Position numbers and translations under genes: made by a program
Source of the DNA: a virus
Virus record (IMG/VR): IMGVR_UViG_3300042197_001179
Span: 1-64,000 of that record
DNA length: 64,000 nt
Direction: 5' to 3' (one strand)
The notes under the pieces: generated by a model
Databases searched by the model: none
What the model was told of the DNA's origin: nothing
Seen by the model: only the letters and a program-made list of their open reading frames with translations
In this document: piece after piece, positions 31,946-64,000 of the stretch
Numbering within the stretch: position 1 is the stretch's first letter
Layout: every line of letters begins with the position of its first letter

Positions 31946-31986
31946 AGTGATGCTCCCATAAAAGAACAGGAATCTTTTTCCACGCA

Positions 31987-32002
31987 ATCAAATCTATTTG
32001 AT
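31987..32002. promoter_or_regulatory. Operator-like palindrome ATCAAAT-CT-ATTTGAT
   Basis: A perfect 7-bp inverted repeat with a 2-base centre, 42 bases before the ParB-like gene. The half-site resembles the GATTTGATT motif in other non-coding segments, including the mirror palindrome at 32297-32316. Confidence 0.6.
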
Positions 32003-32040
32003 CTGATTGTTTGCGTAGGGCAATGTATCGACATCGCCGT

Positions 32041-32106
32041 ATACCCTTACGTCGAAAAGCGGTTATTATTCCATCGACGTAAAATGTTGCAATACATATA
32101 CTTACG
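32041..32106 (-). promoter_or_regulatory. Leftward promoter arm with GGAAT-N16-CGTA core
   Basis: Read leftward the arm runs CGTAAG, TTGCAACATTTTACG, ATGGAATAATAA, then GACGTAAGGGTAT. GGAAT (32068-32072) and CGTA (32048-32051) are 16 bases apart. TTGCAA with AATAAT also makes a weak sigma70-like pair. It points at the ParB-like gene and hence the whole left operon. Confidence 0.7.
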
Positions 32107-32144
32107 CTTTCCACTACACTAATTGCAGTATACTATATTTATTG

Positions 32145-32166
32145 TTCATTCATTCATTCATTCATT
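32145..32166. repeat. TTCA tetranucleotide repeat
   Basis: Five and a half head-to-tail TTCA units lie in the centre of the inverted repeat between the divergent promoters. They may act as a flexible spacer, bind a protein or simply reflect slippage. Confidence 0.8.
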
Positions 32167-32206
32167 TTCATAGGGGGTTAATAGATACTTGTTTAGTTAG
32201 TAAAAC

Positions 32207-32274
32207 GTAAGTTACGGTATTGCAACATTTTACGCTTAAATGGAATAATAAACCAGTCTAGACGTAAGGGTATA
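32207..32274 (+). promoter_or_regulatory. Rightward promoter arm with GGAAT-N16-CGTA core
   Basis: The mirror of 32041-32106: CGTAAG, TATTGCAACATTTTACG, ATGGAATAATAA, GACGTAAGGGTAT. GGAAT is at 32242-32246 and CGTA at 32263-32266, again 16 bases apart. It points at primase-helicase. Confidence 0.7.
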
Positions 32275-32296
32275 TGGTATGGTCTAATTAAAAAAC

Positions 32297-32316
32297 GATT
32301 TGATTCTAATCAAATC
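32297..32316. promoter_or_regulatory. Operator-like palindrome GATTTGATT-CT-AATCAAATC
   Basis: A perfect 9-bp inverted repeat with a 2-base centre, 26 bases before the primase start codon and downstream of the promoter arm. Repression at this spot would block the rightward operon. The ParB-like proteins are candidate binders (inference). Confidence 0.65.
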
Positions 32317-32342
32317 ACTCAAAATCCTTTTGGAGCAATCTT

Positions 32343-35039
32343 ATGAGTGTAACGCGGTCGGAAGCTATCAAAAACTTCTTACGTGAAAAGGCCAGAAGTG
32401 ATTTAGCTGCACTGTATTCAATTGACATGGAAGTTCAAGTCAACGTCGCACAAGATGGCGGTGATCGTGTTGAAGGTGATTATAAAGGAAAGATGTGGCA
32501 AGGTTGGACTGATGGTGTCACAACCTGGAAACCTTTTAGAATCCCGTACAAAGCTAACAGCTCACCTGAATACACTGACGTAAAAATGTCTTTTGATTTA
32601 GCCACGCACGCTGAAGGAATTGGCATGACAGGTTGGGATTGGAAAAATCTTTGCTCCCGTTGGGTAGCATTTGATTTTGATGCAATCCTTGGTCACTCGG
32701 ATAAACACCGCTCAACTTTGACCAGCGAAGAATTAGAAAAAATTCAAAGTGTTGCTACTGAAATTGATTGGATAACTGTACGCAAATCCACTTCTGGGAG
32801 AGGATTGCATTTATATGTTTTTCTTGATCCTGTAGTACCTACTGAAAATCATACTGAACACGCGGCACTTGCACGTGCGATACTTGGTACACTGTCCGCT
32901 ATCACAGGGTTTAACTTTGATTCTAAAGTTGATAACTGTGGTGGAAACATGTGGGTATGGCATCGCAAAATGGTTGGTACAGATGGTCTTACACTGATTA
33001 AACAAGGTACTAAACTTGCTAACGTGCCTGCAGGATGGCGGGATCATGTTGCAGTTGTAACCAACAAACGCCGTAAAACTCTGCCACAGAATATTGGTGA
33101 GACATCTACTGGTAAAACGATTGATGAGTTAGCGGGGCAACAACCTAAAATCACTTTGGATGATGAGCACAAGCGATTAATCAACTTCTTAAAAGATTCT
33201 AACAGCTTTTGGTGGTGGGATCAAGATCATCACATGCTCGTTACGCACACAAAGATTCTGGAATCGGCCCATGAAAGCCTGTGCTTAAAAGGATTCTTCA
33301 AAACTAACTCTAGAGGCTCAAATACAAACGAGCAAAACTGTTTTGCATTCCCCTTACGTCACGGCGTGTGGTCTGTACGTAGATATACACCGGGCGTACA
33401 AGAACACGAATCTTGGTCTCAAGATGGTTCAGGTTGGACTCGGTCCTACCTAAATAAAGAGCCTGATCTTAACTCAGCGGCACGAGCCTTCAATGGATTA
33501 GAAGATCCGTCTGGCGGTTTTGTTTTCCGTGAAACTGAAGTAGCTGTAAAAGCTCTTCAAACTATGGGGATAATTGCAAATGTTGATACTGCTTATTTGG
33601 GTCGTGAAGCGATTGTTAAAACTCACAAAGATGGTCGTGTAGTATTGTCAGTTGAAAAGAAGGAAACTGACACAGCAGAATCAATGAAAGGTTGGTTGCC
33701 TAAAAAGGGTAAGTGGGTTAAACTTTTTCAAATGCCGATCACTGATCCACTTGAACCTGAAGTAGGCAACTATGATGATATTGTTCGACACTTGATTACT
33801 CATCAACATGAGGATCACGGTTGGGTAATCAAGTCTGATGAAGTTTGGCAAGATGAACCTTTGACCCATGTTAGGGTAGCGTTAGGGTCTATGGGTTTGG
33901 ATGGCAAAGAAATTACCGCGGTACTAGGTAATGCAATTCTAAAATCTTGGAAACTTGTTAATAAGCCATTCCAGCCGGAGTATCCAGGTGATCGTGAATG
34001 GAACCGTGGTGCGGCTCAATTCAAATTTGTACCTACGTTAGATGATGATTTGCAGTACCCTACATGGTTAAAAATTTTACACCATTGCGGCAAGGGTTTG
34101 GATCGTGCAGTTAAAAATCATCCTTGGTGCAGGGCTAACAACATTTTAACTGGTGCAGATTACTTAAAATGTTGGGTAGCGTCACTTTTCAAAGAACCAT
34201 TAGAACCTCTACCATATCTTTTCTTTTATTCCGTAGAACAAAACACCGGCAAATCAATTTTCCACGAAGCTTTGTCACTACTCGTCACAAGCGGATACAA
34301 GCGTGCAGATGCAGCTATTACATCTACAGGCAGTTTTAATGCGGAATTAGAGGGCGCTTTAATTTGTGTGATTGAAGAAACTGACTTAAATAAAGATAAA
34401 ACAGCCTACAACCGCATTAAAGATTGGGTGACAAGCAAAGACATTTTGATCCACAGAAAAGGTGAAACACCTTACCATTCACCTAATACAACACATTGGA
34501 TACAGTGTGCGAATGACCACATGGCTGTACCTATGTTTGCAGGTGATACGCGTATAACAGTTTGCCACGTAGAGCCACTTGATCCGCTGGAAATGATTCC
34601 TAAGAAAAAGTTGTTGCCCATGTTGGAAAAAGAGGCTCCACACTTTTTAGCAGCTGTGTTACGATTAGAGATTCCTGAATCTCCTGATCGATTAAATATC
34701 CCTGTAGTTGCAACACAAGACAAAGAACTTATTCAGAAGATTAACCAAAATGCTCTTGAGCGATTCTTGGAAGAAGTTTGCGAACCTGTATCTGGTCAAA
34801 TGGTTAAATTTAGTGAGTTTTACGATAGATTCATTGCGTGGATTGATAACAATGAAGCGCAGTATTGGAGTAAGATTCGCGTAGGCCGTGAGCTTCCGCC
34901 CCAATATCCTAAAGCCCGAATACCTTTAGACGGTCAATTTTGGGTTGGTAATATTTGGTGGAAAAATCAGCCTGCACCATCTTCTAAACCAAAATTAATC
35001 ATTAGTGAGAAAGGGATGTTAGTCCATGACAACTCTTAG
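32343..35039 (+). CDS. Primase-helicase (AEP primase plus SF3 helicase)
   Basis: This is the phage's primer-making and unwinding enzyme. The first third is an archaeo-eukaryotic primase-like domain: WVAFDFDA with the DxD metal pair (Asp111, Asp113), STSGRGLHLYVF with His157, and VDNCGGNMWVW (about 197-206). The last third is a D5/SF3-type helicase: Walker A VEQNTGKS (631-638), Walker B ALICVIEETD (672-681) and sensor IQCAND (about 719-724). The linker (240-600) is not recognised. It ends with TAG and overlaps the next gene by 14 bases. GGAG lies 8 bases before the ATG. Confidence 0.88.
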   Translation: MSVTRSEAIKNFLREKARSDLAALYSIDMEVQVNVAQDGGDRVEGDYKGKMWQGWTDGVTTWKPFRIPYKANSSPEYTDVKMSFDLATHAEGIGMTGWDWKNLCSRWVAFDFDAILGHSDKHRSTLTSEELEKIQSVATEIDWITVRKSTSGRGLHLYVFLDPVVPTENHTEHAALARAILGTLSAITGFNFDSKVDNCGGNMWVWHRKMVGTDGLTLIKQGTKLANVPAGWRDHVAVVTNKRRKTLPQNIGETSTGKTIDELAGQQPKITLDDEHKRLINFLKDSNSFWWWDQDHHMLVTHTKILESAHESLCLKGFFKTNSRGSNTNEQNCFAFPLRHGVWSVRRYTPGVQEHESWSQDGSGWTRSYLNKEPDLNSAARAFNGLEDPSGGFVFRETEVAVKALQTMGIIANVDTAYLGREAIVKTHKDGRVVLSVEKKETDTAESMKGWLPKKGKWVKLFQMPITDPLEPEVGNYDDIVRHLITHQHEDHGWVIKSDEVWQDEPLTHVRVALGSMGLDGKEITAVLGNAILKSWKLVNKPFQPEYPGDREWNRGAAQFKFVPTLDDDLQYPTWLKILHHCGKGLDRAVKNHPWCRANNILTGADYLKCWVASLFKEPLEPLPYLFFYSVEQNTGKSIFHEALSLLVTSGYKRADAAITSTGSFNAELEGALICVIEETDLNKDKTAYNRIKDWVTSKDILIHRKGETPYHSPNTTHWIQCANDHMAVPMFAGDTRITVCHVEPLDPLEMIPKKKLLPMLEKEAPHFLAAVLRLEIPESPDRLNIPVVATQDKELIQKINQNALERFLEEVCEPVSGQMVKFSEFYDRFIAWIDNNEAQYWSKIRVGRELPPQYPKARIPLDGQFWVGNIWWKNQPAPSSKPKLIISEKGMLVHDNS

Positions 35040-35229
35040 AGAACTCATTAACAGATTAACGCCGGAGCAACGTGAGTATTTGGACGTTGCTTTTGAAGAT
35101 GTTTTCGCACGTTACGTAATGGTTAATGACTATTATGTTGGCGTGCATTTGATACCTACTCCAGAATTGATTGAATCTGAACGAGTGGGTTTCTGGTCAT
35201 GTGGAAAATTAAAGAAAGGCACACAGTGA
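35026..35229 (+). CDS. Hypothetical protein, 67 residues
   Basis: A small acidic protein starting MTTLRELINRLTPEQREYLD, predicted helical at the front. It overlaps the primase end and, through GTGA, the kinase start. No family recognised. Confidence 0.58.
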   Translation: MTTLRELINRLTPEQREYLDVAFEDVFARYVMVNDYYVGVHLIPTPELIESERVGFWSCGKLKKGTQ

Positions 35230-35783
35230 CAACCTTAGCATTCATAATGGGTCCTACGTGTACTGGTAAAAGTACACTCATTTCTTACATTGCAAATAAT
35301 CATCCAGACGTAGGTGTTGTGTCTGTAGGAAAGATTCTTCGAGCAAAGTACCGTGCTTCATATTTCAAAGGATCAGGTTGTCCACAAGAGACTGCAGAAG
35401 AAGCCTGGAATTTGTGTGAAGAGAATGTTGAAAAATTCTTAACAGATGATAAAAAGTTGATCTTAATTGATGGTCAACCGCGTGAAGTGGATCAAGTGGA
35501 CAAGATTCTTCATGCTTGGGGCGATCTCTGCTTGCGATTCATTCTATTGGACGCTGGTACAGACGTTCGCGCTGCCCGAGCCGCGTTACGTTATCGGCCT
35601 GAACAGGTCGAGGAAATTGAGTTGACTAAAAATCGTTTGTATGCAGATGTTTTAAGTAATTTCAAAGTTGTAGCACACTTATTGAAACATTCTAGAAAAG
35701 TCGAAGTAGTTTGCAGTGACGCTTTGCCTGAAACGTACTGTGATAAAGTTTTACATTCCCTTGTAACTGGAGAACAGTTATGA
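35226..35783 (+). CDS. Adenylate-kinase-like P-loop nucleotide kinase
   Basis: The 185-residue protein has Walker A GPTCTGKST (9-17), VGKILRAK in the position of the adenylate kinase substrate segment, LILIDGQPREVDQ as Walker B/NMP-binding strand, and basic lid residues (RAALRYRP). It probably phosphorylates a nucleoside monophosphate for dNTP supply. It starts with GTG after GAAAGG and overlaps the stop of the previous gene. Confidence 0.78.
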   Translation: MTTLAFIMGPTCTGKSTLISYIANNHPDVGVVSVGKILRAKYRASYFKGSGCPQETAEEAWNLCEENVEKFLTDDKKLILIDGQPREVDQVDKILHAWGDLCLRFILLDAGTDVRAARAALRYRPEQVEEIELTKNRLYADVLSNFKVVAHLLKHSRKVEVVCSDALPETYCDKVLHSLVTGEQL

Positions 35784-36667
35784 CAGATTTGTTAAGTATG
35801 TTGGATGATTTAGATGATTCATCTGACAAAATAAGTGCTGACACAATCGTAAAAGCTCCTTTCGGTTGGCCTGGAGGTAAGTCACGTTCAATTAAACACA
35901 TCATACCTCTTCTACCGTACAAAGACGTTTGGTGCGATCATTTTGGCGGTTCGGGTACAGTGACACTGGCTAGGCGGCCTTGCAAATTAGAAATTTATAA
36001 TGATCGATTTTCAGGGCTAACTGACTTGTATAGATGTATTCAAGACCCTGTGAAACTTCAATTGCTTGTTGATCGTCTTGAACACACAATCCACTCTAAA
36101 GAAACTTTTTTAGACGCTAAATCTACTTGGAAAAACTTCACTGATCCCGTTGAACGTGCGGCCAAATTCTACGAAATGGTTGTGTACTCTTTCGGAAAAT
36201 TAGGTAGGAATTGGGGTAGAGCAAGAGTTCCTACTGGACGCGTATCTGGCATCTTGCGTGATGCGTTACCAAACTTTTACAATATCCACGAAAGATTTAA
36301 GTATGTTCAAATTGAAAATGTTGACTTCAGAAAATGTATGAAAGATTATGATAGTGATGTCACTGTCCACTATTGTGATCCTGATTACGTTGACACGAGT
36401 GCGGGAGTCTATGCTCACGGTATGTCTGTCGACGATCACAAAGATTTATTGAGACTTATTTTTGAAATGAAAGGATTTGTAGCTGTGTCAGGTTTGGCTA
36501 ATCCATTATACGATGGATTCAAATGGGATGATCGTCGAACATGGAATTCGTACTGCTCCATAAAAAGCATTAACAGTTCGGAAAACAATAACAAAGGAGA
36601 TATTGCTCTTGTGGATGAAGGTAGAGGTCACCAAGAAGAAGTTTTATGGATTAAGGACTTCCGATGA
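35780..36667 (+). CDS. Dam-type (D12 class) DNA adenine methylase
   Basis: The 295-residue protein has the alpha-class order: FGWPGGKS (28-35), AdoMet site DHFGGSGT (53-60) and the catalytic box CDPDY (199-203), where DPDY replaces DPPY. It likely methylates adenine in phage DNA, giving protection from restriction or marking replication. The acidic N-terminal 22 residues are extra. It overlaps genes on both sides by four bases. Confidence 0.85.
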   Translation: MTDLLSMLDDLDDSSDKISADTIVKAPFGWPGGKSRSIKHIIPLLPYKDVWCDHFGGSGTVTLARRPCKLEIYNDRFSGLTDLYRCIQDPVKLQLLVDRLEHTIHSKETFLDAKSTWKNFTDPVERAAKFYEMVVYSFGKLGRNWGRARVPTGRVSGILRDALPNFYNIHERFKYVQIENVDFRKCMKDYDSDVTVHYCDPDYVDTSAGVYAHGMSVDDHKDLLRLIFEMKGFVAVSGLANPLYDGFKWDDRRTWNSYCSIKSINSSENNNKGDIALVDEGRGHQEEVLWIKDFR

Positions 36668-36852
36668 ATAAGCTCCATAAAGATATTGAACGGTTGGAAA
36701 AATTGGTTCCCACTGCAAAATCCTTTCCAAAAGGAATCTACTACTGGCAAGCTGCAATGTCGACTGTTATTGAAGTAGATGAAAAGCGTGCTGAACGTCT
36801 TGAACGATTAGGTGAATCTGTCTGGCTGAAAGGACTCGCCAATGGCTCTTAA
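36664..36852 (+). CDS. Hypothetical protein, 62 residues
   Basis: A helical, charged protein coupled by ATGA to the methylase and overlapping the exonuclease start by 11 bases. No family recognised. Confidence 0.58.
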   Translation: MNKLHKDIERLEKLVPTAKSFPKGIYYWQAAMSTVIEVDEKRAERLERLGESVWLKGLANGS

Positions 36853-37480
36853 TTCATTGCAACATTGGAATGGTTGTCAAATGTGCGTTATTGACACTGA
36901 GACAACTGGTTTAGACCCACAATTTCATGAACTGGTACAAATCTGCATTTTGCCACTTGATTCTAATATGAATGTTAGGACCGATGTAATACCTTTTTAC
37001 ATTAATCTTAAGCCAGATCACCCTGAAAGGTTTGATCCGGGAGCCGGTATTGTCAATAAAATGGACTTGGCCAGTATCATCAAAACTGGCATGGACCGTG
37101 AAAAAGCTAAAGACTTGCTTGAGGAGTGGGTGGTTAAGTTAGGGCTGCCTTTGAATGCGAGAGGTTACAATCGTTGCAAAATCATTCCAGCCGGGCATAA
37201 CTACATTCAATTTGACTTACCATTCATTTTAAGATGGCTAACTAAACCTGTCTACGATGAAATTTTCCACTACCATCCACGTGATACTATGGTGATTGCT
37301 GCGTATCTAAATGATCGTGCGGCATACCACGCTGAACGCGTACCATTTTCAAAAATCAGTTTAGATTGGGTCTGTAATCAATATGGCATTGAAAATCGCA
37401 AGGCACACGATGCCATGTCTGACTGTATTGCAACCGCAGCAGCTTTGAAAAAACTTCTTGAACGTGGATTGATTGGTTAA
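36842..37480 (+). CDS. DnaQ-like 3'-5' exonuclease (DEDDh)
   Basis: The 212-residue protein has the exonuclease motifs in order: VIDTETTGLD (Asp18, Glu20), GHNYIQFDLPF (Asp125) and KAHDAMSDC (His189, Asp194). It is a single-domain DEDDh exonuclease, which in phages trims or proofreads DNA or RNA. It is the last gene of the rightward operon, with a strong terminator ten bases after its stop. Confidence 0.88.
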   Translation: MALNSLQHWNGCQMCVIDTETTGLDPQFHELVQICILPLDSNMNVRTDVIPFYINLKPDHPERFDPGAGIVNKMDLASIIKTGMDREKAKDLLEEWVVKLGLPLNARGYNRCKIIPAGHNYIQFDLPFILRWLTKPVYDEIFHYHPRDTMVIAAYLNDRAAYHAERVPFSKISLDWVCNQYGIENRKAHDAMSDCIATAAALKKLLERGLIG

Positions 37481-37489
37481 ACAAAAAAA

Positions 37490-37513
37490 CCCTCGCCCTT
37501 AAGTGGGCGAGGG
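37490..37513. terminator. Bidirectional terminator between converging operons
   Basis: A perfect 9-bp GC-rich stem (CCCTCGCCC/GGGCGAGGG) with a 6-base loop is flanked by A7 on the left and T8 on the right. It works for both strands, ending the rightward replication operon and the leftward late operon. Confidence 0.95.
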
Positions 37514-37519
37514 TTTTTT

Positions 37520-37810
37520 TTATTTGAAAGTTTTTCGATTTTTTAACAGTTCAACAGCTTTTGAACTGTCACTATCGCAAGTTAAACACAGTCGCCTATT
37601 AGTTACTTTGTTATTGACGCTGCACACTAAAACCGTGTTGTAGGAACATCCTGAACATTTTTTAGTAGCACGATTAGAACAATCCTTTAATATCGCTATT
37701 GCTACTCTAGGATTCGTTGGGTGCGGTTCGTAGCCAAGCGGAATGGGTGGCGACTCACCGCGATCTGCGCACATTAAAATGCCTTCACCGGTGTCACGCC
37801 AACGATTCAT
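37520..37810 (-). CDS. Hypothetical Cys-rich protein, possible zinc binder
   Basis: The 96-residue protein has KKCSGCS (about 50-56), VCS near 62 and LCLTC (about 74-78), which would suit one zinc site. It is the last gene of the late operon and overlaps the lipoprotein gene by four bases (ATGA). No family recognised. Confidence 0.6.
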   Translation of the reverse strand: MNRWRDTGEGILMCADRGESPPIPLGYEPHPTNPRVAIAILKDCSNRATKKCSGCSYNTVLVCSVNNKVTNRRLCLTCDSDSSKAVELLKNRKTFK

Positions 37811-38538
37811 CGCAAATTCTCCATTACCTGAACCTCGTCAACAAGTGCTTTAGTTGCAGGAGATTGAATATGATTTAAGGCTTGTTTGTTTGCTTCGGAT
37901 AAAGTTTCACGTGGGGCTATCTGCGAAACTGAGCAAACTAATTCAATCACAGCTGCACGGTATCGCCAAAGCAAATATGTCGCATAACCAAAAACTGCCA
38001 CAGCTAAAACGATGCCAAAAGTGGTGAAGAGCCACATCCAGTCTCGGAAAACCTTACCTGCTATAGTGCTAGATATTCCTGAGACAAGAATGATTAACGG
38101 TACAGTGTACTGTTTAGTAATCAGAAAAATCAACACACTGGCAGGCACACACAAAGCACCTAAAACAATCATCAACGTGTAGATTTTAGACTCAAGCGTA
38201 CTGTGAACGTTTTTAAGTTTTTCAATCTCAGAATTTTTAGACTTTAAGAGCGTGTCATAATTCTGTTTAACAGCAACTAATTCATTTGTAGCTTCGTTTA
38301 TAGCTGCGGTTAACGCAATGTTTTTATCTTGCAAAGTTTTAATATCTTCCCATTGCGTTAAATTCGGTGCAACTTTCACACCAGAGTCTGCTACCTTTTT
38401 AGTAGTCTCAGAATTCTCTCGAATAGACTCCGTAGAGTGAGTGATTGTTGCTTTTGATTCTGCGACATCGTAATTAACAGCCGGACTCTTGCAGGCCGTT
38501 AAAAAGAATGCCGTGAAAAAGATGATCAAGTGTCGCAT
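37807..38538 (-). CDS. Lipoprotein with C-terminal membrane segments, spanin candidate
   Basis: The 243-residue protein starts with a signal peptide and lipobox (FFLTACKS, lipidated Cys16). A periplasmic helical coiled-coil region (about 30-115) follows, then three hydrophobic spans (about 119-140, 147-163, 170-192) and a soluble tail. An outer-membrane lipid anchor joined through a periplasmic coiled coil to an inner-membrane anchor is the layout of a unimolecular spanin, although known ones are shorter and have one membrane helix. Its location at the end of the late operon suits a lysis gene. The function is inferred. Confidence 0.6.
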   Translation of the reverse strand: MRHLIIFFTAFFLTACKSPAVNYDVAESKATITHSTESIRENSETTKKVADSGVKVAPNLTQWEDIKTLQDKNIALTAAINEATNELVAVKQNYDTLLKSKNSEIEKLKNVHSTLESKIYTLMIVLGALCVPASVLIFLITKQYTVPLIILVSGISSTIAGKVFRDWMWLFTTFGIVLAVAVFGYATYLLWRYRAAVIELVCSVSQIAPRETLSEANKQALNHIQSPATKALVDEVQVMENLR

Positions 38539-38945
38539 TAGATTTCAGTCCTTTCTGCGTTTTTTATAGCTCTTTGCACTATCTTGACAGCCAACCACTC
38601 GAAGAATGGCAGACTACGTTTTTCAGCCTCCTCTTGAAGCCAACCTACAATAGTTTCAACATTAGCTTTGCACCATTCAACACCTTTAAGGTCCATTTGT
38701 TTGGCACGTGCATTACATGAACAATTTCCTGTAGCAGTGATTCCTACACGTTTCAACAGTTTTTTAAGTTCTGTGCCAGGCTTTCCTTTCTTTGTGAATT
38801 TTTTACCGAATGGACACTCAAACTCTTGTGAAGGCAGTTTATAGTATTGCTGCAGTTTGATGCGAGTATGTATACCAGAATCAATGTCGCGACAAACTTC
38901 ACAAAAGTTTCCACTTTTACACACGTGAGAATCTTTTAGCTGCAT
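38538..38945 (-). CDS. Conserved phage Cys-rich protein
   Basis: A 135-residue basic protein with CKSGNFCEVC (9-18), ECPFGKKF, a GTELKKLLKRVGI segment, GNCSCNARAKQMD and EWC. I recall the last block from phage proteins near tail genes. The Cys pairs may bind zinc. It overlaps the Cys-rich structural gene by ten bases. Function unknown. Confidence 0.58.
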   Translation of the reverse strand: MQLKDSHVCKSGNFCEVCRDIDSGIHTRIKLQQYYKLPSQEFECPFGKKFTKKGKPGTELKKLLKRVGITATGNCSCNARAKQMDLKGVEWCKANVETIVGWLQEEAEKRSLPFFEWLAVKIVQRAIKNAERTEI

Positions 38946-46567: not shown

Positions 46568-46569
46568 TT

Positions 46570-52374: not shown

Positions 52375-52402
52375 AACACTATACCCTTTCCTGAACTAGA
52401 AC

Positions 52403-53729: not shown

Positions 53730-54108
53730 GGTAAGTTTCCGTTGGCAGTGTAGAGTGTGCTTTATTATTAACCACTAAAACTAACAACGCACCTAACACG
53801 GTTGTCAAAATGGCTCCAACCATACCATACACAATCAATTTAACAGGTTTGAATTCTTCACTGGTAACACAATTTGTTAAAGTTTTTGACTGTACTTCTT
53901 GCGTACTTTTTATTAGTGCTAATTGGGCAACAATGCCTAATCCATCTTGAGGCATTAAAACATCTGTTAAACGCTCCACACTTTCAGTTAAATGCCTGAC
54001 CGCAGTTTTAGTTTCCTCCAACTCTTTTCGGAGATTGTGGAAATCTTCTTCACGTTGCGTGTGAAGGCTTCTCAATGCATCTGCAATTATTTCTTGGAGT
54101 CGTGACAT
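53716..54108 (-). CDS. Coiled-coil protein with C-terminal membrane helix (XhlA-like)
   Basis: The 130-residue protein has an N-terminal coiled coil (about 1-52), a soluble middle and one transmembrane helix (about 93-114, VYGMVGAILTTVLGALLVLVV), then a short tail. The layout resembles XhlA/hemolysin-like proteins that work with holins, though a role in virion assembly cannot be excluded because of its place between capsid and connector genes. AGGAAAGG precedes the ATG. Confidence 0.6.
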   Translation of the reverse strand: MSRLQEIIADALRSLHTQREEDFHNLRKELEETKTAVRHLTESVERLTDVLMPQDGLGIVAQLALIKSTQEVQSKTLTNCVTSEEFKPVKLIVYGMVGAILTTVLGALLVLVVNNKAHSTLPTETYHVQE

Positions 54109-54137
54109 TGACGCCTTTCCTGATTAAGGGTAAAACC

Positions 54138-54163
54138 GCTTGAGAGACTTTCGTCTCTCAAGC
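54138..54163 (-). terminator. Hairpin after the major capsid gene
   Basis: A 10-bp perfect stem (GCTTGAGAGA/TCTCTCAAGC) with loop CGAAAG in the leftward transcript, followed by GGTTTTA. It lies 18 bases after the capsid stop. A partial terminator here would raise capsid mRNA over the genes downstream. Confidence 0.72.
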
Positions 54164-54181
54164 AGTGAATCAGGAAAGGGT

Positions 54182-55573: not shown

Positions 55574-55589
55574 TTGTAGTGTTCCTTTC

Positions 55590-56375
55590 TTAGGAGAGTT
55601 TGATCTTGCCTTCACGACGGAGACGCATGTACTCCGACATATCACGTTGAGCAATACTTACGGCGTCCATCTTACCATTTAAGCCAGAACGATTAGTGCC
55701 TCCAACGCCACCCCTACTATCAATCTTAAAAAGATTCTGGTACTTTTCCATTTCCTTCATACGCTTCACAGCTTCAGCCGGAGAAAGTTCCAGTTCAGTA
55801 GGTTTGCCTTTGGAGTCAAAATCGGAAAATTTAACAATCGGCTTGTATTGTCCCGTTGGACGCCCATCATCAAGAACCTCTACAAGACGAGTGTTGGGCT
55901 GCAAAATAGCGGTGATTTGTTCACTAGAGAACGCTTGCTGATCATTCGCCGCATCGGCAATAGCCCGAAGAATAGTCGAAGTCTCGTGACGAGTTTTCCA
56001 AGAGTCGCGCTCTTTCGACAGTGTGTCAAGTTCTTCTTTGTGCTTGCGTTGAGCTTTCTCCAAATCCTTTTTAGCCAGTTCCTCTTTAGTCAATAAACTG
56101 CGACTCATCTCTTGGAGGCGCGCATCTAACTCATCACGTTCCTGTTGAGTGAGTTGTGAGCGAGCCTTAAGAGCCTCAACCTCAGCTAACGTATTTTGAA
56201 TAGCGGATTGATGCTTTTTGCGATCCTCCGCTAACATTGCGTTAAGCTGTTCTTGAGTGTAAGTTTTGGTGGGCTTATCTTGCGGAGGTGTAGGAGGCGT
56301 AGGAGGATTTTGAGGATTGCCGTCAGCGTCATCAAAGACAGTGTACCAGACACGATTCATTAAAAAACGATTCAT
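55590..56375 (-). CDS. Capsid scaffolding protein
   Basis: The 261-residue protein has a Pro-rich N-terminus (about 20-36), a long charged coiled coil (about 40-135) and a globular C-terminus ending SEYMRLRREGKIKL. This layout, directly before the capsid gene, marks the scaffold that shapes the procapsid. Its start (RVWYTVF) echoes the start of the capsid protein (RTWYTVF). TTGGAGC precedes the ATG at 56375; a second in-frame ATG at 56360 has no site. Confidence 0.85.
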   Translation of the reverse strand: MNRFLMNRVWYTVFDDADGNPQNPPTPPTPPQDKPTKTYTQEQLNAMLAEDRKKHQSAIQNTLAEVEALKARSQLTQQERDELDARLQEMSRSLLTKEELAKKDLEKAQRKHKEELDTLSKERDSWKTRHETSTILRAIADAANDQQAFSSEQITAILQPNTRLVEVLDDGRPTGQYKPIVKFSDFDSKGKPTELELSPAEAVKRMKEMEKYQNLFKIDSRGGVGGTNRSGLNGKMDAVSIAQRDMSEYMRLRREGKIKLS

Positions 56376-56391
56376 AATCAGTTAGCTCCAA

Positions 56392-56853
56392 TCAAGAGAT
56401 TCTGCTTAACCTCACACCGTGTGGGTCGCGCAGGTACGGCCTTAAATATCTCCAAGCAACACTGCTTGGCACACCGGCCATTATATGTTCTACATCACCG
56501 TGCTTGTAAGTGGCTTTAACATTTCCGTAGGTTTGAGATTCCATTCTAAGGGCTTCCATTTCTCGTTCAGGATCAACACCACTTAATAAAGATAGGGCTA
56601 TTTCACAGCACGCAATTTTTACATCATTAGGTATTTCAGTTTCAGGGTAACGTGGGAATTGATTATTCTGCTCTGGATCTGTTTTACTGCCTTGGAAATT
56701 TAATCTATTGATAATGTTTGTTGCCATTTTAAGTGATTTGGTTTTATCACTTAACTCAGAATCATCCCAAACAATTGTCTCAAGTCTAGTACTGAAGTAC
56801 TCTTCAGCTTCATCCACATCTAAATAAGGAGTAATTTCAAGCACTAGCTTCAC
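56392..56853 (-). CDS. Head-tail adaptor
   Basis: The 153-residue helical protein has YLDVDEAEEYFSTRL, then KMATNIINRLNFQGSKTDP and IPNDVKIACCEIALSLLSG. This is the pattern of phage head-completion (gp6/DnaT-like) adaptors that bind under the portal. It lies between portal and scaffold and overlaps the portal by 17 bases. Family fit is good. Confidence 0.78.
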   Translation of the reverse strand: MKLVLEITPYLDVDEAEEYFSTRLETIVWDDSELSDKTKSLKMATNIINRLNFQGSKTDPEQNNQFPRYPETEIPNDVKIACCEIALSLLSGVDPEREMEALRMESQTYGNVKATYKHGDVEHIMAGVPSSVAWRYLRPYLRDPHGVRLSRIS

Positions 56854-58582
56854 CTCTTACTTTCTTTTCTGCTTCAGCAGAATTATCAGCGGATTGAGAA
56901 ATGGTCTTTTCTTTTTTAGCTGAATCTGCGGAAGAATCTAAATCAGCCACACCTCTGGCAGCTGCTGAGCTTTGCGCCAAAGCAATCCTAGCAGCACGCT
57001 CCGCATGATCTTTCTTAGCTTGCTCAACTTCACCTTTAGGATATCCGCGAAGTAAGCTGGCCGTTTCAGTACCTACAAACCCTGCTTCGTGATCACTTCT
57101 CAAAGTATTGGGGTCAACATCAATTAAAACAGCCTCTTCCAGCTCTTTGTGAATTTGTTTAATTGTAGCATAATCAACTTTATTAGCGATTAAAGTGTCT
57201 ACAATACGTTTAGCCATTTCTATTTGAAAAGTTTTAGAGGGCAATGTAGGTAACACTTCACGCAGTGCCTTAGATTTTTCTAATCTTTGTTCATCTGTTA
57301 CTAATGAATAATTATTGGGGTATGCTATTGTGATTGGTTCAGAATAATTTTCGTATTCTGCCCAAATTTCAGCAATTCTACGCTCACAATGTTCTAACTC
57401 TAATCCAATATTAGACAATCCTTCTTCTTTGCCTTGCTGGTCTTTTTCTTTGCTTATAGCTGAGGCGTTTCTGGATGTTATGTTAGTCAGTGTTAGACCT
57501 ATAAGTTGTCGCATTTCTTGCTTAAGAACTTCTTGCTTCTCCATCGAAACCCTTAATGGGTCTGGTGACGGATTAATGAACGCAGGACGTTCTAAGCCTC
57601 TTGCGTACTTACGACCGTGAGTCACACCAATATCCAGATTATTTGTTTTTGCTTTGTTAGCCTGCGATGAATTACCTTCAGGGGAACTTTCAGCATCTAA
57701 AGAAAGTGGATTATCATCCACAGCCGACCTTAAAAATTGTGAAATTTCAGCTGAAGGATTGTACTGTTCTGTGTAGAATGGGAAATTGCTTTTTTGGGCA
57801 TAGTTCATATCAGAAGACGCCAATTGCAGTGAAGCAATTTGATAATCTGCTACGTCCTCTAATAAAGACTGCCCAATATCCGCCAAAACAAAAGGTATTC
57901 TACGCAAAGTGAGTATGTTCGCGCGTTCAAGTAGTTCAACACCATCAGCATCAAAGAATTGTACGCTCACACCATCAGGCACTAAGCGGTAGAGCCTGTA
58001 CTCATGTTTTGTGTCTGTTACAAGATTAGTCTCTTCATCGACTACATCTACAGTATCACGCAACAGGAGCGTTGTGAAGTTGCCGAATCTGTCTTGCTGC
58101 CAACTTCTAATATCTTCCGCTTTATAGATGTACAAGTACGGTCGAATCTTTTTAGAGTCGGCCTTAGTCATTTTAGGATCAACTGGATCGTTATCAACAT
58201 AGATGCCAACACGTTCAAGAGTAATTAACTCAGGCAAAACACGTTGACCTATGAAACTATTCATCGTGTTGCCATGATAATCTACCCCACCTAACTCACC
58301 ACGACAAGCACGTTGATAAGATTCAGGACCATTGATTCTTGTGATGTCTGTCATTCGCTGATAAATTGCATTTTTAATGTCTAAAATAGCTGCTTTAGCG
58401 TGCGCAGGACTGTAACTTATGTTTTTACGCAGTGCGAAATCAATATCATCTTCACGCGAACTGAACTTTTCCAAGTACTTGACAACAAAATCAGCCCCAC
58501 TTATAAACACATCACGGAATTTCACCCATTGGTGAATTCTTGAAGTGTAGTAAGGGTGTTGTGTTGATGCTATATTTATCAT
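56837..58582 (-). CDS. Portal protein
   Basis: The 581-residue protein follows the terminase, has WVKFRDVFISGADFV near its start, SFIGQRVLPELITLERVGI at about 113-131, and a helical C-terminal half (MRQLIGLTLTNITSRNASA). Its tail (about 510-581) is rich in Ala, Ser, Glu and Lys. It should form the 12-fold DNA gate of the capsid. Size and gene order support the call. AAGGAATC precedes the ATG, which overlaps the terminase stop. Confidence 0.87.
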   Translation of the reverse strand: MINIASTQHPYYTSRIHQWVKFRDVFISGADFVVKYLEKFSSREDDIDFALRKNISYSPAHAKAAILDIKNAIYQRMTDITRINGPESYQRACRGELGGVDYHGNTMNSFIGQRVLPELITLERVGIYVDNDPVDPKMTKADSKKIRPYLYIYKAEDIRSWQQDRFGNFTTLLLRDTVDVVDEETNLVTDTKHEYRLYRLVPDGVSVQFFDADGVELLERANILTLRRIPFVLADIGQSLLEDVADYQIASLQLASSDMNYAQKSNFPFYTEQYNPSAEISQFLRSAVDDNPLSLDAESSPEGNSSQANKAKTNNLDIGVTHGRKYARGLERPAFINPSPDPLRVSMEKQEVLKQEMRQLIGLTLTNITSRNASAISKEKDQQGKEEGLSNIGLELEHCERRIAEIWAEYENYSEPITIAYPNNYSLVTDEQRLEKSKALREVLPTLPSKTFQIEMAKRIVDTLIANKVDYATIKQIHKELEEAVLIDVDPNTLRSDHEAGFVGTETASLLRGYPKGEVEQAKKDHAERAARIALAQSSAAARGVADLDSSADSAKKEKTISQSADNSAEAEKKVRGEASA

Positions 58583-60243
58583 ACAGATTCCTTAATCGAT
58601 TGGTTAGAGGCTAAGCCTGCAGCTAAAAGCAGTGCTAACTCTGAGTATGTCCTAGCGTGAGCAAAGTGATCTTCTTCATTACCCGTAACATATGCACCTA
58701 TGGCGTTGCCTTCTTTATCTTTGCGGTAGATTCTTACAGGAGCTTTCACGTGCGACTTGTACTCTAATGACAAGTCTATTGGGAGAAGAATCTTTTTTCT
58801 GTGAAACCTAGATAAAGACACATCCATCCAAGATGTGCGATCAACAGTCATAGTATGCAAATCTTCTTCGTGAATATTTATCTGTTTGCCAGATACGTTA
58901 TTACCGTAGAAGCATAATTTAACATGTCCCCAAAATCGTTGAGCAAATTCTAAAGCTTTTCGTCGCTCAGGATTAGCGTCAATAACCACATAGTTAATCA
59001 TATACTTTTTGATTAATGTATCAAGCTCTTCAAAATGTGCCACTTTTCCTTCAAATAACACTTTGCAAATTGCAGAAGTGTTTAAATCTATTGATGGAGT
59101 AGTTGGATCCATGAACCATTGGTCTATTTCAAAATGTAGCCACTTACCGACGTCAACGCCCATTGTTATTAAGGCGTTCATAGGCGAACTAGGTTGCTTT
59201 TTATAGATTTGCCGTTTTTGACAGTCTAAAATTATGGCGTCTGTAATACGCGAACCTTCAGGTTCATGCGTCAGCCCTAATTTAGAGTTGTAAAACTCTT
59301 GCTCATCCCCAGGATTCGTTTGCCCTCGCAAGTAGCTGATTGCTAAATCAGCGGGTTTTACAGTCATTGAATAAAGCTGATTAACATGGAAGCCGCGTAT
59401 TGTACGATCACTATGCGTAGCCACCCACTTAGATGTGTGTTCTGTCAACCAATCTTTTTTAGTTTCGTGCTCTAATCTGTGCTTACATTCTTTGCATTTT
59501 AAGTAACTATCGTATACAGAGGGCTCAATAGGGGATTCGGCAGTAATCACTAAACACTCTGGAAAAGTCAACTCTGTGTAACGACTGCAACAAGGGCACT
59601 TGAAAAAATAATGATCTTGAGAACTTTGTCGGAACCAGATATTGATACCTTGATTATCTACTGTAGGTGTGGATAGTAAAAAGATTTGCTTTTCTACTTG
59701 TCCACTAGTTCGCTCGAAAGCAAGTTTCAGATTGTCCTGATTCATTTCATCTACTTCGTCTGCAACTATCATAGCTACTGGCAAAGATTTAAGCTGTGAC
59801 CGGCTACGACTGCCGCGGATAAATAGATTTGCAGTACCAGAACGTTTGTGTCCAATGTTTTTCACATCTGAGAAAAGATTTTGTAGATGCGGAGACATTT
59901 CTAAAGCAGGGTCAAATCGGGAGGTTGAAAAGTCTGATGCGTCAGGTGTTGACGCTGGCAAAATATACAATACTGACTTACCATGTACGTCAATATTGTA
60001 AAAGACTTTATTCAACGCTGTCTCAGTAAAAGCTAACTGAGCACCTTTTTGACCAACCATCATTTCAGCTTCACAATCATGCATCTCTCTAGCCCAAGGA
60101 TGGTGCTGAAATGACCATTTTCCTGGGAAAGGTTGACCCATGACGCGGTAAGATTCTGCCCATTTTGAACAAGTAGTGATTGCGTGACGCTGCAAGCCTG
60201 TTGCAATTCTATCACGCATCAATTGCAACAAGGCAGCACTCAC
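58579..60243 (-). CDS. Terminase large subunit (GpA-like)
   Basis: The motor pumps DNA into the procapsid and cuts it. The 554-residue protein has a P-loop variant VGQKGAQLAFTET (63-75), Walker B MIVADEVDEM (158-167), a zinc site CPCC...CKEC (216-219, 250-253) and nuclease acids in MGVDVGKW (Asp364) and VVIDANPE (Asp422). These mark the lambda GpA family, whose members often make cohesive ends. It starts with GTG overlapping the TGA of the gene upstream (GTGA). Confidence 0.92.
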   Translation of the reverse strand: MSAALLQLMRDRIATGLQRHAITTCSKWAESYRVMGQPFPGKWSFQHHPWAREMHDCEAEMMVGQKGAQLAFTETALNKVFYNIDVHGKSVLYILPASTPDASDFSTSRFDPALEMSPHLQNLFSDVKNIGHKRSGTANLFIRGSRSRSQLKSLPVAMIVADEVDEMNQDNLKLAFERTSGQVEKQIFLLSTPTVDNQGINIWFRQSSQDHYFFKCPCCSRYTELTFPECLVITAESPIEPSVYDSYLKCKECKHRLEHETKKDWLTEHTSKWVATHSDRTIRGFHVNQLYSMTVKPADLAISYLRGQTNPGDEQEFYNSKLGLTHEPEGSRITDAIILDCQKRQIYKKQPSSPMNALITMGVDVGKWLHFEIDQWFMDPTTPSIDLNTSAICKVLFEGKVAHFEELDTLIKKYMINYVVIDANPERRKALEFAQRFWGHVKLCFYGNNVSGKQINIHEEDLHTMTVDRTSWMDVSLSRFHRKKILLPIDLSLEYKSHVKAPVRIYRKDKEGNAIGAYVTGNEEDHFAHARTYSELALLLAAGLASNQSIKESV

Positions 60244-61679
60244 GGTGACCCCTTAATTGAAGGTAATTCAAACGAGTTCTCATCCGGTACAGTGAAAGTT
60301 ACCCAATCACCGTTACCTCTACGCACTGAATAAGTGTCACCACGTACTAAATTAGTGAATTGTGCTAAACCAAATTCATCACTTTTTACAGTACGTACAG
60401 TGGCGTCGAACGCGTAGTTTGTAGGTTGTGACGTTTTCAACATCTTTAAGTCAACACGAACATTTGCAGCTACGTTGCCAGCTTCATCGAAACAGAAAAG
60501 ATAACCAGTAGAATAATCAAGACTCATGCTAGGCGATATGTTTATGGCTGTTAGCTCTATTGTGAAAGTTTCAGTAGTTGTAACTAAGATTGTTTCAGGT
60601 GTGTGCATGTAATTTGATTTAGTGGCACTTACAGTGTAAGCACCTGCGTCTAATGCAAACACGGCTTCACCATTGGAATCTGTTTCTTGCGTCATTCCAT
60701 CGACACGTACAGTTACACCTGCTAACGTCGGGGACGTTGTGATTGTGACCACATACGCACCGATTCCAGAATCGACATCTGACACTTTAACGTGTGCGTG
60801 TACGTTATTGTTTGTGAATGTAAGCTGATCAGTCTTGGCTTTGACAGCTGACAAATTAGCGAAACCGCCCAACAGTGTGGCTTGCAAGGCAAGACCGTTT
60901 TGAATCGCGGTGATGGCTCCGGCGTCGAATGCAGAGGCTTGGATTGCTCCGTCAGCGAATCCGCCCACAAAAACCTCTGGATTAACGGGGAGACTATGCT
61001 GCGTCGGGTCATACGACCCCGCCGGTCCTTCGTCATAGAGAGGAGCATTGATCCATGTAGCTTCCAGTGCTTCACCCGCCCCATACGTGAGGTCGAAGTC
61101 TGAGCGAAGAATGGCATGGAAACCAGTCCGCGTGATTCCCGTAAGTGACGTTATGGAGGATTGGATGCTTCCAAAGGAGCTACCGAGCGAAGTGGTAATC
61201 TGTGCTACAGCACTCTCGTCCAGTGTGTAGACCAGTAACACGCCGTTAATCAAGCCACCCGTCGTGTCAATCGGTCCACCGTTGACAATCTGAGGTACGT
61301 TTGTGCTGGTGATGGCCGAAGTAATCTGAGCGGTCGTCGGGACAGCGTTGCTCAGATTCGTTAATCCCAGGTTCGTCACAGCATAAGGGTCGAAGGCGAC
61401 CACTTGCACCAGAAGATCGACCGGCTCCGCACCAGCGTAGGTAATGTTGATTGCCGCAAAGCCCAGAGTGTTGAGGTCCGTGCTAAGCGGGGTCCAGATG
61501 TACCATCCGTTACCGAGTTCGGCGATTGTCGGAGATGTAAGTGTGTTAAAAGATGCGCCGTTCTCGGAGAGCTTGATTGTGATGCTCCCGACCGTCGCTC
61601 CGGTGACAGGAGAGGTCTTGTCACTGGATGACACAAGCAGAAAAGGCATAGGACGGGTGTCGGCGGATTTATACAGCAT
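60240..61679 (-). CDS. Putative virion surface protein with Ig/CNA-like domains
   Basis: The 479-residue protein is Thr/Ser/Ala-rich. The N-terminal part (about 1-100) is a beta domain (PFLLVSSSDKTSPVTGATVG). The middle has FDAGAITAIQNGLALQATLL, an amphipathic helical linker seen in some phage structural proteins. Then come two carboxypeptidase-regulatory-like beta domains (about 300-375 and 390-470, AGVTVRVDGMTQETDSNGEA type). It may decorate the head or tail. GGAGCG precedes the ATG at 61679. Its location upstream of the terminase is unusual for a tail protein. Confidence 0.58.
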   Translation of the reverse strand: MLYKSADTRPMPFLLVSSSDKTSPVTGATVGSITIKLSENGASFNTLTSPTIAELGNGWYIWTPLSTDLNTLGFAAINITYAGAEPVDLLVQVVAFDPYAVTNLGLTNLSNAVPTTAQITSAITSTNVPQIVNGGPIDTTGGLINGVLLVYTLDESAVAQITTSLGSSFGSIQSSITSLTGITRTGFHAILRSDFDLTYGAGEALEATWINAPLYDEGPAGSYDPTQHSLPVNPEVFVGGFADGAIQASAFDAGAITAIQNGLALQATLLGGFANLSAVKAKTDQLTFTNNNVHAHVKVSDVDSGIGAYVVTITTSPTLAGVTVRVDGMTQETDSNGEAVFALDAGAYTVSATKSNYMHTPETILVTTTETFTIELTAINISPSMSLDYSTGYLFCFDEAGNVAANVRVDLKMLKTSQPTNYAFDATVRTVKSDEFGLAQFTNLVRGDTYSVRRGNGDWVTFTVPDENSFELPSIKGSP

Positions 61680-62505
61680 GGATGACGCTCCTTCCGGCAC
61701 GGAATTGATTCATCTTTCTGGGGAAAAGATTCGTTCTACGGGTTGCAGCAGCGAGACTCATGAGGCTTCGTCGTGGACGCATGAAGCAGAAGGGGTCGTC
61801 CAGCAGATAGCTGACATCCTCATCCGTCAACATACGCTGCCAGAGAGCCGCACCTTGCATGATTACGTTGGTATGGGATGCGTCGCGTCGTCCACAAAAC
61901 GTGATGGTGTTCAAGAATCCAGCAGGAGCCAGCGTGCTTGAGAGTGCGGCAATGCCACCAGAACCGGTCCTGAAAGCGTTGGCTCCGTCGAAATGCCACA
62001 TACGGGTTGAAGCAGCAGCAGGATCGACAGAACAAACAGAGATGATTCCGTTGCCACGAGCCACACCGCCGCCAAGTTGGCCGTAGAACGACCCTCCGAC
62101 GAACACAGAATCGACACTTGTACCCCACTCAACCACATCACCGGAACCGAAGAATAGACCAAGCACCCTCTCGGTATTTGCGGAAGTTGGCGTGGTCTGT
62201 CCCACCCACATCACGGAGAACGGAAGAGTTGATGTCAGCACCCGCAATCCGTTGACACCAAGCCTGCCAGACGCAGTGGACTGTATTCCTCTCCCCCACA
62301 AACCCACGCGAGAGACAACGCTCGCAGCGGGATAACCTTTGTCGGTGTGTCGCTGTCCTGTGACGATATTCCGAGCGAACATCTTGGAGCCAGTGGAGGC
62401 GGATGGTGCGGGGTGGTCCTCAAGCGGATAGAACGCTTTCAGTCCATCCGCAAGGTGGTGTCCGTGTTGAACAACGCACGAGGATGGTTTAGCGGGGTAT
62501 TGCAT
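61669..62505 (-). CDS. LamG/concanavalin-like structural protein
   Basis: A 278-residue beta protein with HHLADGLKAFYPLED near its start and GAALWQRMLTDEDVSYLLDD at about 220-239, before PFCFMRPRR. That end (alpha-helix, x-DPF-x-xFRP) is typical of LamG-like jelly-roll domains in phage and bacterial surface proteins. Glycan binding on the virion is a reasonable guess. It overlaps the next gene by 11 bases. Confidence 0.65.
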   Translation of the reverse strand: MQYPAKPSSCVVQHGHHLADGLKAFYPLEDHPAPSASTGSKMFARNIVTGQRHTDKGYPAASVVSRVGLWGRGIQSTASGRLGVNGLRVLTSTLPFSVMWVGQTTPTSANTERVLGLFFGSGDVVEWGTSVDSVFVGGSFYGQLGGGVARGNGIISVCSVDPAAASTRMWHFDGANAFRTGSGGIAALSSTLAPAGFLNTITFCGRRDASHTNVIMQGAALWQRMLTDEDVSYLLDDPFCFMRPRRSLMSLAAATRRTNLFPRKMNQFRAGRSVIHAV

Positions 62506-62507
62506 AA

Positions 62508-62876
62508 TTAACCTACACTAGAAGATTCGTGGAAGATTGCCTCGACGGTGACGTCCTGTGCCGTATTCCCGGTGTACACGCTCCTAATATACATAACATG
62601 CTCTGGAATCACAATGTTAAACGGGTACGGCTGATTGGCTGTGACACCAGCGGTTTGCTCAGCTAGCGTGAACCAGTTGCTGCCGTCGATAGATGCGTCG
62701 ATACGTGCGGTGCAGCCGATGGTCGGTCCTGTGCCTCCGTTGGTAATCTTTGACTGGACCAGTCCACCGAACGTAGTGCGGAGGTCGAGTATGGCAGATG
62801 TTGTTGATGCAGGTGACACACCGTTGGTAGCCGACACTTGAAGGGTACGCCCTGTTTTGTTTGGGTTAGTTGGCAA
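62508..62876 (-). CDS. Small beta-rich structural protein
   Basis: A 122-residue protein with ARIDASIDGSNWFTLAEQTA (about 58-77), a beta-sandwich pattern common in phage and virion accessory proteins. It lies in the first genes of the late operon. Possible decoration protein; function not proven. Confidence 0.58.
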   Translation of the reverse strand: MPTNPNKTGRTLQVSATNGVSPASTTSAILDLRTTFGGLVQSKITNGGTGPTIGCTARIDASIDGSNWFTLAEQTAGVTANQPYPFNIVIPEHVMYIRSVYTGNTAQDVTVEAIFHESSSVG

Positions 62877-63264
62877 TGGGAACCTCCGTCTTCCATGTCA
62901 TGCCGTCGGTGCAGTTGAGGTAGCACTGTTCGGTGGCATCGACCGTTACGCCATCCACCTTTTTGTAGTACCTAACCTCAGTCTGCACAGGAGCCGGTTG
63001 GTCTGGGACATCTTCCATACCTAGAGTGTTGATCTCCGCGACTTCCTCCGGCGTGAAGACTCCGTTTGTTTGCAAGGCGGTGAGTGTCGCTTGCGTCTTC
63101 GGGTGACGAAGCTCAACACCGTTGCCGCGAAGCTGGATCAGGACTTCTTTCATCAACACATCTGTTTCCGCTAAAGCATTAAGCTTAGCGAGTATTGACG
63201 CCCCTGACGGGAGCGTTGTCAAAGCCAATGTGGTGACGAAGTAGTGATTAATCGGTTGAAGCAT
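62866..63264 (-). CDS. Hypothetical protein, 132 residues
   Basis: An alpha/beta protein with a helical middle (ILAKLNALAETDVLMKEVLI) and a C-terminal beta segment with two Cys. TGGAG precedes the ATG at 63264. It overlaps both neighbours. It may be a minor structural protein; no family recognised. Confidence 0.58.
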   Translation of the reverse strand: MLQPINHYFVTTLALTTLPSGASILAKLNALAETDVLMKEVLIQLRGNGVELRHPKTQATLTALQTNGVFTPEEVAEINTLGMEDVPDQPAPVQTEVRYYKKVDGVTVDATEQCYLNCTDGMTWKTEVPIAN

Positions 63265-63808
63265 CGTTATTCTCCAGTAATCTAGTGTCAGACAACTCAC
63301 CCAAGATTCTGTCAGCGATGAGACTGACCAAAGCCTCATCTTCAACAGTTTCAGTGATGATTGTAATAATCGCATTCGCAAAATTCAGGAGTTGCTGTTT
63401 ATCAAGCAGCATTCCCATGTTAAACTCTAACTTGTGACAGGACTTGACCACTGTGTCAATCTTCATCACAAGATCAGAAATCGGACCAGACATGAGCAAT
63501 AAATCTGTAGCGTCCTTACACATGTTAAGACGCTCTTCAAGCATGATTCTTAGAATACCGACTTCTTCACGTAGAGACTTGACACCGGTAGAATTGGCTT
63601 TTTCTAAGACTTTAGCGTGCCATTGTGTTAATCGGTAATTCTGCAAACTTTGCCTTCGCTGTGCAGCCTGTTGTTGCGAGCCTCCGTGTGCTACGCAGTA
63701 GATAGTGTTCTCCATAGCAGCAGAAGGACATTGTCCATTGCGAGTGATTCCTTGGCAACGATTTGGGGCATCGTCTGCCACACGCTTTGCATTAGGTAAT
63801 TCTTGCAT
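63248..63808 (-). CDS. Putative terminase small subunit
   Basis: The 186-residue protein is first in the late operon. It has a small Cys/His cluster RCQGITRNGQCPSAAMENTI, then YCVAHGG (about 17-43), a motif I have seen in phage proteins near terminases. A helical remainder has coiled coils (about 50-180). Position before the structural genes, size and helical nature suit a small terminase that recognises packaging DNA, though other genes separate it from the large subunit. AAGGG precedes ATG 63808. Confidence 0.5.
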   Translation of the reverse strand: MQELPNAKRVADDAPNRCQGITRNGQCPSAAMENTIYCVAHGGSQQQAAQRRQSLQNYRLTQWHAKVLEKANSTGVKSLREEVGILRIMLEERLNMCKDATDLLLMSGPISDLVMKIDTVVKSCHKLEFNMGMLLDKQQLLNFANAIITIITETVEDEALVSLIADRILGELSDTRLLENNDASTD

Positions 63809-64000
63809 TTTTATAGGCCCTTGATTCCGAAATCCTGACAATTCTACGCTACACTAGCGCAGTCTCTATACAACCATACGTCAGAAAAAATTTTTTATTC
63901 CGGTGTGATTTTAATTCATTGTCTGGATCTTGGAATCGCACCTTGCGTCTTTAACCCACCCTGCAAACAAAATTTAACTTTGTGGCGCAGGGTAGAGGGC
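63809..64000 (-). promoter_or_regulatory. Late-operon leader with GGAAT-N16-CGTA element
   Basis: Read leftward, GGAAT (63897-63901) and CGTA (63877-63880) are 16 bases apart within GGAATAAA-N11-GACGTATGG. This matches the two arms at 32.1 kb. It stands about 70 bases before the first late start codon. It is the best candidate for the late promoter. Nothing else is evident to the end of the window apart from AT-rich DNA. Confidence 0.65.

Follow-up and report, generated by a model that had tools for sequence, protein, structure and literature searches.

A three-copy promoter-like element and a phage-encoded sigma factor in an uncultured siphovirus-like phage and its relatives

Each of the three main gene blocks of the uncultured siphovirus-like phage IMGVR_UViG_3300042197_001179 is headed by one copy of a bipartite element, GGAATAAW-N11-GACGTAWGG. 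These three elements are very probably promoters. Their most likely reader is a sigma factor encoded by the phage itself, and we infer that this protein recognizes them. The scheme that we favor as the probable one has phage-sigma promoters for both the replication and the late blocks, with the sigma first made by the host polymerase. The analysis covered a 64,000-nt stretch (the window) of the 67,869-nt record, and relatives of the phage in IMG/VR.

Genome plan and the three-copy element

No close cultured relatives of this phage were found (megablast; capsid 25-33% and terminase about 25% identity), and its primase aligns with those of cultured phages over a short stretch only, at identity <30%. 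Leftward from 32 kb run genes for a ParB-like protein, a helicase, a second ParB-like protein, DNA polymerase, the sigma factor, DNA ligase, and ribonucleotide reductase. The rightward block from 32 kb encodes primase, an adenine methylase, and an RNase T-like exonuclease, and a further leftward block from 63.8 kb encodes terminase, portal, capsid, tail tape measure, and tail genes. The leftward early block also contains four tRNA genes, for Met, Val, Gln, and Leu, dispersed over 12574-19541. L030, the 63000-67869 segment that closes the record on the right, has a GC-rich GGCGGC/GCGGCG low-complexity repeat with an alanine-rich ORF at its own positions 1076-1430.

The full motif has exactly three perfect copies in the window (Table 1). 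Scans of the window and the full record thus bear out the original prediction of a three-copy element with GGAAT and CGTA a fixed 16 nt apart, and correct the coordinate that it gave for copy 1 (32072, not 32068). The boxes of copy 1, for example, read as -35 GGAAT, N16, and -10 CGTA. When up to three mismatches are allowed, one further site appears in the window, at 4450 (-) with three mismatches; shuffled windows average 0.52 matches at this level, and none of 100 reaches four. At up to two mismatches the record contains no motif beyond the three copies, and a reversed control gives none. Stripped to GGAAT-N16-CGTA, the pattern occurs four times in the record, namely the three copies and a match at 66558 (-) in which the remainder of the long motif is missing. 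At other spacings from 8 to 29 the two boxes never occur together more than three times. A one-mismatch search with the stripped pattern, which had been proposed as a check, did not single out the three sites (15 matches versus 10.1 expected, with no enrichment); only the long motif is therefore meaningful, and the case rests on that motif and its placing. The end of CGTA lies 89, 77, and 69 nt from the likely ATGs (31959, 32343, and 63808, respectively), which agrees with the predicted position ahead of the first genes of operons.

Table 1. Coordinates of the sigma factor, the predicted promoters, and associated features
Feature	Position	Strand	Basis or remark
Element copy 1 (GGAATAATAACCGCTTTTCGACGTAAGG), predicted phage-sigma promoter, leftward ParB/replication operon	32045..32072	-	Exact motif; mirror of copy 2
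Element copy 2 (GGAATAATAAACCAGTCTAGACGTAAGG), predicted phage-sigma promoter, rightward primase operon	32242..32269	+	Exact motif; mirror of copy 1
Element copy 3 (GGAATAAAAAATTTTTTCTGACGTATGG), predicted late promoter, packaging/structural operon	63874..63901	-	Exact motif; orthologous-site copies in relatives
Upstream block CGTAAGT-N-GTATTGCAACATTTTACG of copy 1, second inverted-repeat arm	32078..32110	-	Absent from late copy
Upstream block of copy 2, mirror of 32078..32110 block	32202..32234	+	Mirror alignment
ParB-like DNA-binding protein, first leftward gene	30941..31987	-	Likely start ATG 31959; family match
Primase/helicase-like protein (DUF5906), first rightward gene	32343..35039	+	Family match
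First late gene, 186 aa from ATG 63808	63248..63808	-	Kept upstream of packaging genes in relatives
Phage-encoded sigma factor with two predicted domains, 209 aa	19895..20524	-	Profile matches, orthologs, predicted structure
102-nt cassette before sigma gene, AATCAAATC - TTGACA-N17-TAAGAT - AATCAAATC	20553..20654	-	Predicted host sigma70 promoter, operator half-sites flanking
Second cassette copy (98%), after tRNA-Gln, before small ORF starting near 15910	15954..16055	-	Repeat alignment
GATTTGATT, plus-strand copies	153, 15959, 16034, 20558, 20633, 32297	+	Exact 9-mer
GATTTGATT, minus-strand copies	31986, 32308	-	Exact 9-mer
Palindrome GATTTGATTCTAATCAAATC, primase leader, candidate operator	32297..32316		Contains GATTTGATT copies
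CAATCAAATCTATTTGATCTGATTG, ParB leader, candidate operator	31985..32009		One exact GATTTGATT at 31986 (-)

Copies 1 and 2 point outward between the ParB-like gene and the primase gene, and form the core of a mirror-image duplication of ~75 bp (38 nt at 82% plus 33 nt at 85%); they are therefore not independent. Copy 3 has the core alone in common with them. The upstream block of copy 1 holds TTGCAA, a weak sigma70 -35 candidate.

Conservation in relatives

Primase searches recovered 26 and then 80 IMG/VR loci, and we compared 67 non-redundant intergenic regions, that of the window among them. The divergent order of ParB, intergenic region, and primase is kept in relatives, and the gene that opens their late block is orthologous to the 186-residue one here. 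The positions of copies 1 and 2 are also matched: of the 67 regions between ParB and primase, 61 contain a mirror pair that exceeds shuffles, and its sequence differs from phage to phage. The excess over shuffles is clear for mirror pairs in 51 regions and for direct pairs in 19. In G031 the intergenic region is uneven.

In the 21 phages with a late region, copies at the late site were sought as a 34-nt stretch that recurs in each of the two origin arms and upstream of the late block, using as controls 20 swaps of late regions per phage. A third copy in the transcribing orientation scored above every swapped control in 11 of the 21 (about 1 expected), including this phage, whose own triple scored 21 versus 20 for its best control and a null mean of 15.8, a margin of one base. 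The antisense version of the test gave three cases, two of which pass the null by one base; the third, G005, has a genuine divergent fourth copy. At the sensitivity used, no third copy was detected in the other 10 of the 21. In nearly all cases the late copy lies on the transcribing strand within about 130 nt of the late gene start. This recurrence across relatives makes chance an unlikely source of the element.

Although the sequences change, their layout recurs. Registers with at least three copies are GGAAT-N16-CGTAAGG in the window, TTACC-N16-CGTAATA (G026), TTAAA-N16-CGTAAAG (G041), TGAAC-N17-CGTATATTAC (G031), and GCAAC-N17-CTATAATA (G062); G005 has four copies of GTAAC-N16-GTAKGAT, and mirror pairs give TGAAT-N16-CGTA (G010) and GGAAC-N17-CGTA (G016). 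In an unbiased test, we took each of the 256 tetramers in turn and scored the number of phages in which a pentamer 15-17 nt upstream of the tetramer is common to both arms. CGTA ranked first, with 12 phages versus a mean of 0.28 and a maximum of 2 in mispaired-arm controls. The tetramer on its own is not enriched (60 of 67 origin regions versus 59.6 in shuffles), only its paired form. Across the 23 CGTA-anchored pairs, arm-to-arm identity has one peak spanning -21 to -16 and another spanning 0 to +9, with lower values between them. Two conserved blocks around a variable middle give the profile that a sigma-family promoter has.

ECF-type promoters have two boxes 16-17 nt apart, a GGAAC/AAC-like -35 and a CGTA/CGTC-like -10, and GGAAT-N16-CGTA fits this description; the TTACC and TTAAA variants deviate from the ECF -35 consensus. 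The spacing had been likened to that of ECF promoters from this phage alone, and the relatives with GGAAC-N17, TGAAC-N17, and TGAAT-N16 extend the resemblance. The earlier reading as promoters of an alternative sigma likewise gains strength from the relatives, whose elements share the three locations, the transcribing orientation, and a block spacing of 16-17 nt.

Copies 1 and 2 might instead be host sigma70 promoters, with TTGCAA as the -35 and AATAAT, preceded by TGG, as the -10. GGAAT would then belong to the -10, and GACGTAAGG would be a downstream or regulatory element; in a version of this reading, sigma70 would use the sites early and the phage sigma would use them later. Suitable boxes do occur at copy 1 (TTGCAA-N16-AATAAT, minus strand) and copy 2 (TTGCAA-N18-AATAAT, plus strand), with TG before both -10s, and G006 has TTGCAA-N16-CATAAT at both origin arms and at the late site. 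However, the spacing of these boxes varies by 2, whereas that from GGAAT to CGTA is constant in all three copies. Sigma70-like matches in the origin region are near chance (3 found, 1.7 expected), and in G026, G031, and G041 the conserved blocks sit at the GGAAT/CGTA registers with no TTGACA-like box upstream. Copy 3 has neither TTGCAA nor TG, and its -10 would be AATAAA. The sigma70 reading thus cannot explain copy 3, and we regard it as unlikely overall; an overlapping early promoter is possible at copies 1 and 2.

Binding sites of a ParB-like protein or a replication initiator (iterons or operators), rather than promoters, are an improbable alternative. Two of the copies adjoin the ParB-like gene in a probable origin, to which mirror symmetry is well suited, and DnaA boxes occur in the intergenic regions of three relatives. 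But the core is not palindromic, and a conserved ParB leaves the phage-specific sequences unexplained. The orientation of the late copy and its distance from the late start also speak against binding sites, as does the variable middle between the two conserved blocks.

The DnaA-box repeats (TTGTGGATAA) lie between ParB and primase in L006, L007, and L008 and point to a replication origin; the ParB/primase intergenic region is a plausible one. In the origin pairs of several relatives, an imperfect palindrome of about 28-30 bp, CGTAAGT...ACTTACG, abuts the -35 box upstream and is related to the upstream blocks of copies 1 and 2 (32078-32110 and 32202-32234). By strict matching it is present in 9 of 67 origin regions versus 0.5 expected (e.g., L004, L105, L124, and L149), and it is absent from late promoters.

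The phage sigma factor

The 209-aa sigma factor of the original prediction is real: profiles match both region 2 and region 4, and this homology places the protein in the sigma70 family. Its predicted layout comprises sigma2 (residues ~1-92), a disordered linker (~93-136), and sigma4 (~137-193). Orthologs were identified in G001, G003, G005, G006, G008, G021, G022, and G026, and a profile search of contigs found them in 29 of 45 further contigs, including most long ones. Compared with PDB, a profile of eight orthologs matched a sporulation sigma (1l0o; 2.3e-13) and SigA (1.6e-11) over both regions, and the sigma matches phrog_351 at 5.5e-13. The AlphaFold model is helical at 1-92 and 137-193 (pLDDT 63-89), with the linker at 93-136 below 50 and a pTM of 0.46. 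Sigma factors are the best Foldseek matches to this model, none below E 0.001.

The ECF class is not proven. Pfam Sigma70_ECF scores 30.1 bits against a cut-off of 21.1, over residues 140-182 only. NCBIfam sigma70-ECF is matched by seven of the eight members of the ortholog set and gives the 209-aa protein 37.0, below its cut-off of 42.9; SigBFG and SigH match too. With SigF/SigB/SigH-type matches as good as ECF-type ones, the assignment is not secure. No anti-sigma partner was found.

The sigma diverges fast (median identity 20%, versus 53% for primase). Its divergence does not track that of the promoters (Mantel r = -0.02, p = 0.57; partial r = -0.05, p = 0.74), which is weak evidence either way because sigma identity is near saturation and the automatic choice of cores is noisy. 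That another phage factor, such as an unrecognized phage RNA polymerase or an activator of the host polymerase, reads the elements is very unlikely: several phage proteins lack an assigned function and the co-divergence test gave the sigma no support, but the large window proteins scanned include no match to a polymerase family (T7-like single-subunit enzymes among those sought), the distance between the two boxes is one typical of sigma70-family promoters, and the sigma is conserved across the clade.

First synthesis of the sigma and a candidate operator

How the phage sigma might first be made is suggested by the cassette upstream of its gene (Table 1). With a threshold of at least 10 of 12 matches, sigma70-like promoters lie near 8 of 30 sigma orthologs, versus 4% of random windows. 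Three relatives have such a promoter where the sigma gene group begins: TTGACA-N17-GATAAT (G005), TTGACT-N17-TATACT (G026), and TTGACC-N17-TATACT (G031). The occurrence of such promoters in this phage and several relatives supports the proposed cascade from host sigma to phage sigma.

In the scheme that we favor, host RNA polymerase would make the sigma first, from the adjacent TTGACA-N17-TAAGAT, and the phage holoenzyme would then turn on the replication and late genes. The three elements would act as strong phage-sigma promoters, with a -35 of GGAAT(AAW), 16 nt, and a -10 of CGTA(W)GG, and transcription would be expected to start about 6-9 nt past CGTA. Of the origin-region pair, one would transcribe the replication operon to the left and the other the primase operon to the right; copy 3 would serve the 26-kb late operon. 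Transcripts reading through from copy 1 would reach the sigma gene, which has the same orientation and is located 11 kb further downstream, and would thereby feed back on sigma synthesis. Dozens of related phages share the layout, each with its own promoter sequence.

A 9-mer, GATTTGATT, may add a further layer. Seven of its eight copies in the record fall in the leaders at the origin or in one of the two cassettes. Of the 67 origin regions compared among relatives, 37 contain it (0.7 expected); none of 21 late regions does. In G001, G005, G006, G008, G026, and G031 nearly all copies are at the origin or the head of the sigma gene group. Because it occurs in both orientations it is most likely a DNA operator, and likely that of a conserved phage regulator; the conserved ParB-like protein is a candidate and may be the binder. 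More tentatively, the three-promoter plan could be clade-wide and re-invented in each lineage with its fast-evolving sigma, the invariant GATTTGATT serving as a conserved timing switch. If so, GATTTGATT would couple the promoters at the origin to the one from which the host polymerase transcribes the sigma gene.

Comparison with known systems and significance

Bacterial ECF sigmas (sigmaE/RpoE, SigW) have two domains and use a GGAAC-like -35 and a CGT-like -10 about 16-17 nt apart. The phage protein resembles them in its predicted two-domain build, and its predicted promoters do so in box types, most directly in G016 with GGAAC-N17-CGTA. It differs in the anti-sigma partner, which was not found here, and in its equally good SigF/SigB/SigH-type matches.

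Among phages, the parallel that has been characterized best is the sigma of Salmonella phage 7-11, SaPh711_gp47, which has experimentally verified promoters, GTAAtg-N16-aCTA, of which there are eight, at late genes only (PMC8948821). This sigma shares 15% identity with that of phiEco32, and both sigma and promoter sequences differ strongly between these related phages (PMC8948821). The likeness lies in a phage sigma acting with host core on few-copy bipartite promoters of 16-nt spacing before late genes, which is predicted here. The phages belong to unrelated groups, however, and in ours there are three promoters, covering replication as well as late genes, with a -10 of CGTA rather than CTA. 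The phiEco32 sigma, gp36, is a small ECF-type protein with promoters before middle and late genes (PMC8948821, PMC4331800). Its promoter is a single element, tAATGTAtA, with no -35 (PMC8948821, PMC4331800), and comparison of intergenic regions was the route by which few-copy phage sigma promoters were found (PMC4331800). Our phage shares with phiEco32 a small sigma, promoters ahead of more than one gene class, and that route to them, but region 4 is recognizable in the sigma here and not in gp36. Alignment of the ortholog profile with 7-11 gp47 and phiEco32 gp36 by hhalign, each as a single sequence, detected no homology (probability <1%). Thus the system would work like that of 7-11, but we do not file it as a member of the phiEco32/7-11 type.

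To our knowledge, few phage sigma factors have known promoters. With dozens of naturally occurring sigma/promoter sets, located at constant places in the genome, the clade would offer material for studying how sigma factors change their specificity, and a source of candidate orthogonal promoters. Through the conserved candidate operator, the temporal switch of these phages would become open to direct tests.
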